A stretch of 64,000 nucleotides of DNA, taken from contig NZ_AP024871.1 of the NCBI RefSeq assembly GCF_024346875.1, positions 1,488,001-1,552,000 of the forward strand, read 5' to 3'. Shown in pieces: positions 12,845 to 16,956 of the stretch (positions are counted from its first letter, which is position 1; every line of letters begins with the position of its first letter). The position numbers and the translations under genes are program-made. This DNA is from Vibrio gallicus (GTDB taxonomy: Bacteria > Pseudomonadota > Gammaproteobacteria > Enterobacterales > Vibrionaceae). The notes below the pieces were generated by a model that saw nothing but the letters and a program-made list of their open reading frames with translations, did not search any database and had not been told where the DNA came from.

Positions 12845-13672
<828 letters not shown>

Positions 13673-13724: not shown

Positions 13725-13737
13725 TTGCAATTTGCAA
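13725..13737 (+). promoter_or_regulatory. LuxO binding site upstream of the Qrr RNA
   Basis: TTGCAATTTGCAA is a perfect dyad matching the LuxO operator form TTGCA-N3-TGCAA known from Vibrio qrr promoters. It lies about 80 bp upstream of the sigma-54 promoter elements, the usual position of an enhancer for this activator. Confidence 0.8.
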
Positions 13738-13813
13738 TAGCATTCTGCGACGACCGCCAAGAGTTTTTCTTTAAGCCTTTAAAAACAGTATGTTAAATTT
13801 ACATATTGAAAGT

Positions 13814-13829
13814 TGGCATATCAAATGCA
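13814..13829 (+). promoter_or_regulatory. Sigma-54 promoter of the Qrr RNA
   Basis: TGGCATATCAAATGCA has the invariant GG (13815-13816) and GC (13827-13828) separated by exactly 10 bp, as required for a -24/-12 sigma-54 promoter. Transcription would begin near 13840, the start of the first Qrr stem. LuxO is a sigma-54 activator, so the two sites fit together. Confidence 0.85.
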
Positions 13830-13839
13830 TAATAGATAG

Positions 13840-13947
13840 TGATCCTTTTAAGCCGAGGATCACCTAGCCAACTGACGTTGTTAGTGGACGATATTTTGTC
13901 CACAAAAATACATGCCAACTCTTATCATTATGGGTTGGCTTTTTTTT
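13840..13947 (+). ncRNA. qrr: Qrr quorum-regulatory small RNA
   Basis: This is a Hfq-dependent Qrr RNA that in Vibrio controls luxR/hapR-type master regulator mRNA and other targets at low cell density. The 5' hairpin TGATCC...GGATCA (13840-13861) is followed by the highly conserved core CACCTAGCCAACTGACGTTG, the target-pairing region. A second stem pairs GTGGAC (13884-13889) with GTCCAC (13898-13903). The 3' terminator pairs GCCAAC (13914-13919) with GTTGGC (13934-13939) and ends in eight T. The length of about 108 nt fits the family. The luxO gene is not in this window, so this is probably not the luxO-adjacent copy. Which Qrr number it is cannot be decided here. Confidence 0.93.
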
Positions 13948-13992
13948 GCGTTGTATTCTAGGAATGCTTTGGACATAGGCTATAAACTGCCC

Positions 13993-14424
13993 GGTAGCCC
14001 ACCTGACGAAGTATTAACATCACTTATCGCCACATCGATTCACCGCTACATCGAATCCGCAATATCTCTTTCAACACATATCTTGGAATGAAAAACCCGA
14101 GACACTACAGACCCCGGCTTAAAAGACCACCGGGGAGACGAGAGTATTGAGTATAGAGGTGAGCTTTTAGCTATCAGATGGCGCACCTAACGAAGTATTA
14201 ACGCCACTCATCGCCACATCGATTCACCGCCCCATCGACTCCGCTATATCTCTTTAAGCACATATCTTGGAATGAAAAACCGAGACACTACAGACCCCGG
14301 CTTAAAAGACTACCGGGGAGACGGGAGTATTGGGTATAGCGATAAGCTTTCAGGTAGCGCACCTTACGAAGTATTAACGCCACTCATCGCCACATCGATT
14401 CACCGCTACACCGATTCACCGCCC
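13993..14424. repeat. Imperfect tandem repeat array, about 180 bp units, two and a half copies
   Basis: The phrase CGAAGTATTAAC recurs at 14007, 14191 and 14367, giving unit lengths of 184 and 176 bp. Each unit has CGCCACATCGATTCACCGC about 20 bp later. The two full units also share a block with a GC-rich hairpin CCCCGG...CCGGGG (14112-14135 and 14294-14317) and the sequence ATATCTTGGAATGAAAAA. The third copy stops after about 70 bp, next to the torA terminator. No coding frame is conserved between units. I do not recognise the element; it could be a Vibrio interspersed repeat or a non-coding RNA precursor. Confidence 0.85.
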
Positions 14425-14429
14425 CCATC

Positions 14430-14460
14430 AAAAAAGCCAGAAGACTCTCCTTCTGGCTTT
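14430..14460 (-). terminator. Rho-independent terminator after torA
   Basis: On the minus strand AGCCAGAAG-GAGAGT-CTTCTGGCT is followed by TTTTTTG. The 9-bp perfect stem lies 30 bp after the torA stop and ends the torECA transcript. Confidence 0.9.
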
Positions 14461-14487: not shown

Positions 14488-16956
14488 CTAAGACACTTCT
14501 AAAGGCCCTCCAAAGGCTGTAACTGGTGGTGCCTTACCTTTAAACTTCTCAAAATCAACTAAACAGGTGTTGGCGGATGTAGCTTGTGCCAGTTCTGATG
14601 ATGGAATATCTTGAGTTAATGTATTTGGATCACCATAGGTATCGATGGCACCGATTTTCTCGTTCAAAGGACCATACCAAGCACCTTCCTCGATTCGAAT
14701 AACCCCCTCAGGATAGGAACTCGATACTACGGCACCTGCTAGGAGTTGACCACGGTCGTTGAACACCCGCACAAGATCGCCATCTTTAATGCCTTTTGCT
14801 TTGGCGTCCGCTGGATTCATGTAGCAAGGCTCGCGCCCTTGTACAGCATAGGTAGCTCGGAACTCTTCTGATTCACACATCTGTGAGTGCAAACGCTTAT
14901 CGGGGTGGCACGACTGTAACCAGAATGGATGTTTATCAGAGCCTGGCCCACCGTGCGAACGCTCTGATTTTTCAAACCACATAGGGTGATTTTGGCAATG
15001 CTGGTAGCCAAAACGGCCAATGGTGCGGCTTGAGATTTCAATAAACCCAGAAGGCGTACCTAAAGCGTTAATTTCAGGGTCTTCACGGAATGCAGCGTGT
15101 CGAGTCCATGATTTTCCTTTACCAGCGAAATCAAGTAAGCCTTTTTCCCAAAACTCTTCAAATTCTGGCATCTCAAAACCGCTATTCTTGGCTTTACAGC
15201 CATCATAGAGGCTCTTAACCCACTCCATTTCACTCATGCCACGGGTGTAATCTTTATCACGCCCCCAGCGAGCGGTGAGTTCAGTCATGATGTCAAAGTC
15301 TGTCTTCGATTGGAATTGAGGGTCAACAAGCTTGTGCATCGCAACCAAACCGCGGCCAGAATATGCACCATAGCCATCAATATCATTACGCTCAAATTGA
15401 GTACATGCGGGCAAGACAATATCAGAAAAACGACAGGTCGCCGTCCATGCAAAATCAATAGTCACCAGTGTTTGCAGATTCTTGAACGCCTTCTTCATCT
15501 TGTTACGGTCTTGATGATGATGCCACGGGTTATTACCACTGATAACCATCATCTTAAACCCAGGTAACGTGACCTCTTTACCATTGGCTTGGATTTTTTT
15601 ACCCGGTTCGAGCAAGCTATCAACCCAACGAGATACAGGGATAACACTGCTGTACTGTTTGAAGTCTTTATTAGTATGTTTGGGCTCTTGTCCCTTATCA
15701 ATATTGAGTGGGAAAGCGCCCGGAGCGCCAAAGCCTGTTGAAGGAACACCGATACCTGAATAGTGGTGTCCATATGATACCCCACCACCAGGCAGACCGA
15801 TTTGCCCTATCATCGCAGCTAGAACAGCCCCCATCCAATAAGGTTGTTCACCATGTTCCTGACGCTGAATACACCAGCCAAACAGGATTTGGGTACGACC
15901 TTTTACCAACATACGTGCAAATTCACGTATCTTGTCCGCAGGAACGCCACAGATTTGAGCTGCCCATTCAGGGGTCTTTTCTACTTTGTCTTTACTTTCA
16001 CCGGTCAGATAAGGAACGAATTCTTCGAAACCTAAGCAATACAGGTCAATGAACTTCTTGTCGTAAAGCTCTTCTTTATAGAGGGTGTGCGCAATACCTA
16101 ACATGAAAGCTACGTCGGTTTGCGGGTTTACATATAGGTGTTCGTTACCAAGGAAATGCTGAGTTTTGTTCTTAACTGGGTCAACTGAAATTACGTTAAT
16201 CCCTTTACTTGCCACTTTCTCCTTCAATTGCTCTAAGTATTCAAAAGATTCATGCGTTTCACACGTCCAACCTACTTGAAGGTTTTTAACCGGATCGTTG
16301 GCCCAAATAATAATGTTGTCACTATGTTCAAGGATCAGATCCCAAGATGTACCTTGTGCGTACACCTCAGTCGAACCAAGTACATAAGGTAAAATGGTTT
16401 GGCCGGCGCCGGTTGAGTAGTCTCCAACCTTCTTAAGTGAATACCCGTGCAGCCCTACTGCGCGTTGCATATGGTTGTTACAGCTGTGCATTTGACCGGT
16501 TTGACGCCAACCAGTTTGACCAGCATGCAAGGCCCAAGGGCCGTAGTCTTTCTGAACACGCTCTAACTCACGGTAGAAAAGGTCTAACGCCTCATCCCAT
16601 GTCACACGCACAAAGCGGTTATTACCACGGGTTTCTCCTGAGTACTTATGCTTTTTAAGCCAGTCTAGACGCACCATTGGGTAACGCACTCTCGACGGAC
16701 TATAGATAATCCCCTTAATGCCGTTTAGCATTTCGGTTGGATGCTTATCGACTTCAATCGGTTTGATTTCCTGAACCTTACCTGCCCAAATTCTGGCTCT
16801 AAAAGCACCCCAGTGAGAGCCACTGGTCTTCCATACCCCGTCTGTCGTTTCAGCGGCATTCACACCACTTGAAACCAAGAGGCTTGGTCCAATAACAGAA
16901 GCGGCTGCCCCAGTAGCACCTAAACCTTTTAGAAAGCTTCTTCTTGATAATGACAT
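14488..16956 (-). CDS. torA: TorA, trimethylamine-N-oxide reductase, molybdenum catalytic subunit
   Basis: TorA reduces TMAO to trimethylamine in the periplasm during anaerobic respiration. The 822-residue protein begins with a Tat signal peptide ([10 protein letters not shown] twin-arginine motif, cleavage near VNA). The body is a DMSO/TMAO reductase-type molybdopterin enzyme, with the substrate-site stretch [22 protein letters not shown] and the C-terminal cofactor-binding domain ([23 protein letters not shown] region). It follows torC by 19 bp. Its dedicated chaperone TorD is encoded separately at 28.2 kb. Confidence 0.95.

Follow-up and report, generated by a model that had tools for sequence, protein, structure and literature searches.

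A complete qrr gene lies between cmoA and torA

The window analyzed here is a stretch of 64,000 nucleotides from Vibrio gallicus. Between cmoA and the convergent torA it carries a genuine Qrr small RNA gene, a member of Rfam family RF00378 (Table 1). When the window was searched with cmscan against all of Rfam, this family gave the sole match over the gathering threshold, with a score of 94.0 bits (gathering score, 50; E value, 1.4e-16) and at full length (model positions 1 to 108). Stem-loop 1, the pairing core, the second hairpin, and a terminator stem with eight T residues were all found. A reading made from the letters of the window (here called the sequence-only reading) had proposed a complete Qrr gene beside cmoA, with core, stems, terminator, −24/−12 element, and LuxO dyad, and had named a search with the Rfam Qrr covariance model as the check. 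That search recovered the gene over the gathering score, and each of the proposed parts was present, with the predicted +1 in register with the Rfam match. The Qrr terminator was absent from the output of a simple terminator scan, probably because that scan takes loops of 3 to 8 only.

Table 1. Features of the qrr locus in the window
Feature	Coordinates	Strand	Basis or remark
cmoA, upstream neighbor of qrr	12944..13672	+	NCBIfam CmoA equivalog, 404.9 bits (cut-off 285)
LuxO-type dyad TTGCAATTTGCAA, putative upstream activating site	13725..13737	+	Pattern match; block partly conserved across 11-species alignment
Predicted sigma-54 −24/−12 element TGGCATATCAAATGCA	13814..13829	+	Pattern match; predicts +1 at 13840
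qrr small RNA gene	13840..13948	+	RF00378, 94 bits, E 1.4e-16
Region I, stem-loop-1 arm and loop, CCTTTTAAGCC	13844..13854	+	Exact complement of aphA leader
Region II, ATCACCTAG	13859..13867	+	Complementary to AGGTGA of aphA leader
Conserved pairing core CCTAGCCAACTGACGTTGTTAGTG	13863..13886	+	Identical in 10/11 lineage species
Second hairpin GTGGAC...GTCCAC	13884..13903	+	G-C for A-U double change relative to other species
Terminator stem GCCAAC...GTTGGC plus T8	13914..13947	+	Rfam match, pairing analysis
torA, convergent downstream neighbor of qrr	14488..16956	−	NCBIfam TorA, 1535 bits (cut-off 1465)

The region upstream of the gene was scanned with consensus patterns for LuxO and sigma-54 sites. 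The LuxO pattern TTGCANNNTGCAA had 2 matches in the window against 0.25 expected, and the relaxed sigma-54 pattern TGGCAYNNNNNNTGCA had 2 against 0.48 expected. A stricter sigma-54 pattern (TGGCAC-N4-TTGCW, at most 2 mismatches) had no match at the qrr promoter. Sigma-70-like matches at 13806 to 13833 and 13813 to 13840 overlap the sigma-54 element, the region containing five such matches with 1.6 expected. The dyad and the −24/−12 element are each weak alone; their weight comes from their order and their spacing ahead of the Rfam match. The GG and GC of TGGCATATCAAATGCA are 12 bp apart, which places +1 at the first base of that match, and TGGCA-N7-TGCA is kept upstream of qrr in all 11 species compared. 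Being in order and in register with the Rfam match, the two elements make a convincing predicted promoter, and LuxO would bind at the dyad.

The gene is the only qrr in the genome and lies far from luxO

The V. gallicus genome (G000) comprises two contigs of 3.518 Mb in all and is 99.92% complete. The cmoA-linked gene is the only Qrr in it over the cut-off. A lenient search (E up to 1) returned five further weak matches, the best at 31.1 bits against a cut-off of 50, and the same threshold also gave matches in 4 of 14 control genomes. The sequence-only reading had placed luxO outside the window, correctly (it is ~700 kb away), and had concluded that this was probably one of the additional Qrr genes. 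By sequence type that description fits, the RNA bearing region I and resembling Qrr2-5. As a statement of copy number it is rejected, since no other sequence in the genome exceeds the cut-off and there is no room for a qrr1 between uvrB and luxO.

That interval defines the position of the qrr1 class, which is not the position of the cmoA-linked gene. It measures 12 bp in V. gallicus (and 35 bp in the lineage genomes G122 and G128), which leaves no space for a canonical qrr1; qrr1 is therefore absent, not merely outside the window. That the cmoA-linked gene is a qrr1 that has moved is doubtful, because its stem-loop 1 is full, whereas a shortened one was read in the three qrr1 copies at uvrB-luxO (G292, G303, and G310). 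This argument is weakened by the single qrr1 of other genera, which is also nearer to qrr2-5 according to PMC3262071. The luxO gene itself lies on contig 1 at about 804 kb and is followed by luxU. LuxO scores 802.8 bits with the NCBIfam model (cut-off, 800), and LuxU is divergent, with 73 bits against a cut-off of 140.

HapR/LuxR is missing from the lineage with the cmoA-linked qrr gene

Qrr RNAs are best known for switching off the regulator HapR/LuxR. The best match of the NCBIfam HapR model in V. gallicus scores 59 bits against a cut-off of 350; no hapR/luxR mRNA for Qrr to repress was found in this genome, a result that bears on the function of the RNA and not on its family membership. Among 227 Vibrio genomes, 14 are without a clear HapR: 12 have no match at 1e-10 (G122 and G128 included), and V. 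gallicus (8e-16) and G313 (8e-18) have weak ones, the next weakest match in the set being 2e-63. Qrr is present in all 14. Exactly one copy was found in 11 of them (G000, G122, G128, G172, G180, G191, G210, G211, G254, G277, and G313), and in every one of these 11 genomes the 3' end of cmoA lies at most 1.5 kb upstream of the Qrr on the same strand. Of the remaining three, G292 and G310 are split into many contigs and have 3 and 4 Qrr, respectively, and G296, which is 73% complete, has a single Qrr, beside uvrB. Coordinates identify G172 as V. breoganii FF50, G128 as V. halioticoli NBRC 102217, and G277 as Vibrio sp. UCD-FRSSP16_30; the V. gallicus Qrr belongs to the V. breoganii/V. halioticoli (Halioticoli) lineage. 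The sequence-only reading was right about a Qrr gene beside cmoA, and the absence of HapR/LuxR from the lineage was out of its sight from the window.

The Qrr core was found at 3 of 80 named cmoA loci, those of V. breoganii, Vibrio sp. UCD-FRSSP16_30, and V. halioticoli, all of this lineage; most of the loci were covered with 6-kb flanks, and it is in these 80 that HapR-bearing vibrios were checked for a Qrr at cmoA. The remark of the sequence-only reading that qrr lies where cmoB follows cmoA agrees with this set, as cmoB is next after cmoA in 76 of the 80 loci and not in the V. gallicus window. CmoB is encoded neither in the 64-kb window nor in the stretches examined of L067, L068, L069, and L096. 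In the last of these, from Vibrio sp. qd031, cmoA adjoins torA, with no Qrr. PMC10162802 reports Qrr opposite luxO in 20 of 21 representative taxa having LuxO; V. breoganii, which appears in a table of that paper, is likely the exception.

The site of hapR was read in four HapR-bearing relatives (G020, G074, G077, and G132) and in 5 of the 11 lineage genomes (V. gallicus, G122, G128, V. breoganii FF50, and Vibrio sp. UCD-FRSSP16_30). In the relatives, hapR adjoins what we take to be hpt, and its other flank is presumably lpd in three of them and an aconitase-like gene in G074, identities assigned from the sequences. All five distinct lineage genomes have lpd and hpt as direct neighbors, with no hapR between them. 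The lpd-hpt gap of G122 is about 930 bp and contains a short transposase-like open frame (L205, 2497 to 2748). This frame sits at the place of hapR in other vibrios and, judged by eye, presumably is a fragment of an IS200/IS605-type transposase.

The 59-bit match in V. gallicus is a TetR regulator on contig 2 (L153, 1438 to 2028) with a HapR-like N-terminal part, over which its likeness to HapR/OpaR amounts to 59 to 73 bits. It might stand in for HapR, and the canonical logic would then persist, with Qrr controlling this replacement. In the leader of the gene, the 8 nt of TAGGTGAT at −108 to −101 are indeed complementary to Qrr. However, pairing just as good was seen for 14 of 56 control leaders and for 42 of 200 shuffles (the controls are the leaders, in the window, of mechanically called ORFs of at least 120 amino acids, scored with the V. 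gallicus Qrr and with a flat value for G-U stacks). Moreover, Qrr is found in all 11 lineage genomes, whereas in 9 of them the HapR model, although able to detect L153, gives no match at 1e-10. We regard control of this regulator as the role of Qrr as very unlikely.

Qrr and its promoter are conserved across the lineage

In the alignment of 11 species, stem-loop 1, the core, and the −24/−12 element are near-invariant and the LuxO block is partly kept, while the intervening bases diverge. Over the 11 species (9 distinct rows), 99.4% of stem cells are paired, compared with 21 to 48% for slid controls, and changes on both sides occurred at 3 of 20 stem pairs. Further pair types, one of five covariation measures, were not above shuffles. 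The V. halioticoli Qrr (L046, 1501 to 1599) still scores 71 bits, although 14 alignment columns are missing from it, among them the 5' arm of the second hairpin and the 3' part of the core with TTAGTG.

In a 17-row tree, the LuxO proteins of V. gallicus, G122, and G128 group together (support, 100/100) on a long branch, which suggests that the relay may be under relaxed constraint. The Qrr could accordingly be the left-over of a decaying quorum-sensing circuit, with LuxO, LuxU, and Qrr drifting and the conservation being historical. A missing HapR, a LuxO that evolves fast in the lineage, a divergent LuxU, and the second-hairpin deletion of V. halioticoli all speak for such decay. However, the −24/−12 element, stem-loop 1, and the core have remained near-invariant in 11 species while the bases between the promoter blocks diverged, paired positions change together, and 6 of the 6 aphA leaders found match the RNA (see below). 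These points make decay an unlikely explanation.

The aphA leader contains an exact complement of Qrr region I

In V. harveyi, both region I (AGCC) and region II (ACCU) of Qrr are needed to activate aphA, their pairing partners GGCU and AGGU lying some 130 nt before its start, and repression of luxR and luxO is described as affected by region II only (PMC3262071). AphA itself was identified by its match to PDB chain 1yg2, "gene activator AphA" (E value, 3.8e-76). Region I and GGCTTAAAAGG, which stands at −125 to −115 of the V. gallicus aphA gene, are exact complements, and the aphA leaders of G122 and G128 contain a 12-nt Qrr complement at −120 to −109. GGCTTAAAAGG is present in all six lineage aphA leaders that were found (G000, G122, G128, G172, G211, and G254), the aphA of G313 being outside the 100-kb stretch examined. 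It is preceded by AGGTGA in five of the six leaders and by GGGTGA in G122. The location matches that of the proven V. harveyi site, and a complement of regions I and II about 130 nt upstream of the start is present as predicted for an RNA that may activate aphA.

When leaders were ranked by their best uninterrupted duplex with Qrr, aphA beat all 56 control leaders for G000, G122, and G128, and composition-shuffled aphA leaders did as well in 3, 0, and 0 of 200 cases, respectively. The aphA leaders of other vibrios (G020, G012, G025, and G112) were not singled out, with 6, 6, 6, and 10 of 56 controls as good, because their sites are interrupted; the uninterrupted-duplex method therefore rewards exact matches only. 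With a loop-tolerant duplex (duplexfold), aphA was not above the controls, 50, 24, and 29 of 56 being as good for G000, G122, and G128.

The leader of luxO was also compared with Qrr. A match of 7 to 9 nt at −10 to −2, in the ribosome-binding site, occurs in 6 of 8 other vibrios and in none of three lineage members. The luxO leaders of G122 and G128 have a 6-nt match with G-U near the ribosome-binding site, and in that of V. gallicus 11 nt at −26 to −16 can pair, G-U pairs included, a match that 13 of 56 controls equal. Qrr control of luxO may thus not be wholly gone in the lineage.

Copies of GGCTTAAAAGG outside qrr and aphA were found at four other places in 400 kb of sequence, two of them in the leader of a bioH-like gene, and at at least one place in 1.54 Mb of loci (L106; first match per strand and locus). 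The two leader copies lie just upstream of the gene, in sense orientation, in V. breoganii (L252, 16627) and G313 (L264, 6902). This leader is a possible further target of Qrr.

Beyond region II, where the core has no pairing with aphA, its nucleotides are nearly invariant, which makes further Qrr targets likely. It could be argued that the circuit acts mainly on such other mRNAs contacted by the core, with the match to aphA of minor weight: this part of the core is near-invariant with hapR absent and the usual luxO site absent, and the bioH-like leaders of V. breoganii and G313 share GGCTTAAAAGG. Against this, none of the lineage aphA leaders found lacks the exact site, which sits ~130 nt ahead of the start, as the proven V. 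harveyi site does. We consider a minor role for aphA quite improbable, somewhat more so than decay of the circuit.

The interval from the qrr terminator to the 3' end of torA contains three imperfect direct repeats (13979 to 14457) with a 119-nt unit and a spacing of about 180 bp, the second and third being 84% and 61% identical to the first. Region I of Qrr is complementary over 10 nt to GGCTTAAAAG, which occurs in the repeat region at 14116 and 14299 and has no other plus-strand copy in the window. In 10 of 10 relatives, the 1.5 kb following qrr does not contain the repeat core, and a reading of the repeats as a Qrr sponge was set aside for that reason.

Discussion

We propose that the lineage has a LuxO-Qrr-AphA circuit without a HapR branch, in which the sole Qrr is mainly an activator of aphA, and we assign this reading a probability of about 0.7. 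The proposal builds on observed gene content, gene positions, conservation, and complementarity: hapR and the luxO-linked qrr1 are missing, the usual luxO-leader match of 7 to 9 nt is absent from the three lineage members read, and a region-I-bearing Qrr and its aphA match remain, which argues for aphA as the main target. From the motifs, phospho-LuxO from the distant luxO-luxU operon, downstream of presumed input kinases, would bind the dyad and drive sigma-54 transcription of qrr at low cell density. Qrr, presumably dependent on Hfq, would then open aphA translation through pairing with the leader, activation being the supposed direction of regulation. No HapR would be left for Qrr to repress. 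We would go further, with a confidence only slightly better than even, and suggest that this quorum-sensing circuit represents a third type among the Vibrionaceae: Qrr has outlived HapR/LuxR, and AphA, as sole terminal master regulator, is linked directly to LuxO by one relocated, region-I-bearing Qrr.

The gene is a new member of a known small RNA family, and what is new is the circuit around it. Qrr2-5 of V. harveyi and Qrr2-4 of V. cholerae share with it a full stem-loop 1 that includes region I, the core with region II, the second hairpin, the terminator, the sigma-54 promoter, and the LuxO site (PMC3262071). In contrast to these, the V. gallicus Qrr is single, lies on the larger contig beside cmoA and not in a set with qrr1, and is found in a genome with no HapR/LuxR over the model cut-off. 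Qrr1 of V. harveyi and V. cholerae shares the region II core and the promoter type with it, the full loop of the V. gallicus RNA setting it apart from the shortened form in the luxO-linked qrr1 genes of G292, G303, and G310. The single Qrr1 of Aliivibrio fischeri is likewise the one Qrr of its genome. However, the published single-Qrr class has qrr next to luxO and no Qrr-controlled aphA (PMC3262071, PMC8043402), and A. fischeri has LitR, whereas in V. gallicus HapR/LitR is missing, Qrr is away from luxO, and aphA has a site. The V. gallicus Qrr is thus unusual as a sole copy, away from luxO, that has been kept where HapR/LuxR was not found.

PMC8043402 recognizes two groups of Vibrionaceae, those having a single qrr, upstream of luxO, and those having several, which always include qrr1 there. 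By its gene content, the lineage is an exception to this split. PMC3262071 describes the Qrr-aphA interaction as absent from Qrr1-only species and control of aphA by pairing as limited to multi-Qrr vibrios; if the predicted pairing is real, the lineage is an exception to that rule as well. Among the matches listed in an open-licence literature search, no paper was found on a cmoA-linked Qrr or on HapR loss in the lineage, and none contained both "cmoA" and "Qrr".

The lineage separates, in nature, the Qrr-to-AphA arm from the Qrr-to-HapR arm, so that one can ask which density-dependent traits need AphA only. It suggests that conservation of Qrr is independent of HapR, and it provides an aphA-Qrr pair with an exact match of 11 to 12 nt.

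A mirror image is given by G030, G074, G077, and G080, in which HapR is kept and LuxO and Qrr are lost. Their HapR scores 290 to 320 bits (under the cut-off, at full length), and neither LuxO at 1e-150 nor Qrr over the cut-off was found in them. V. rumoiensis is listed without LuxO in a table of PMC10162802, from which we infer that these four genomes belong to the Rumoiensis clade.
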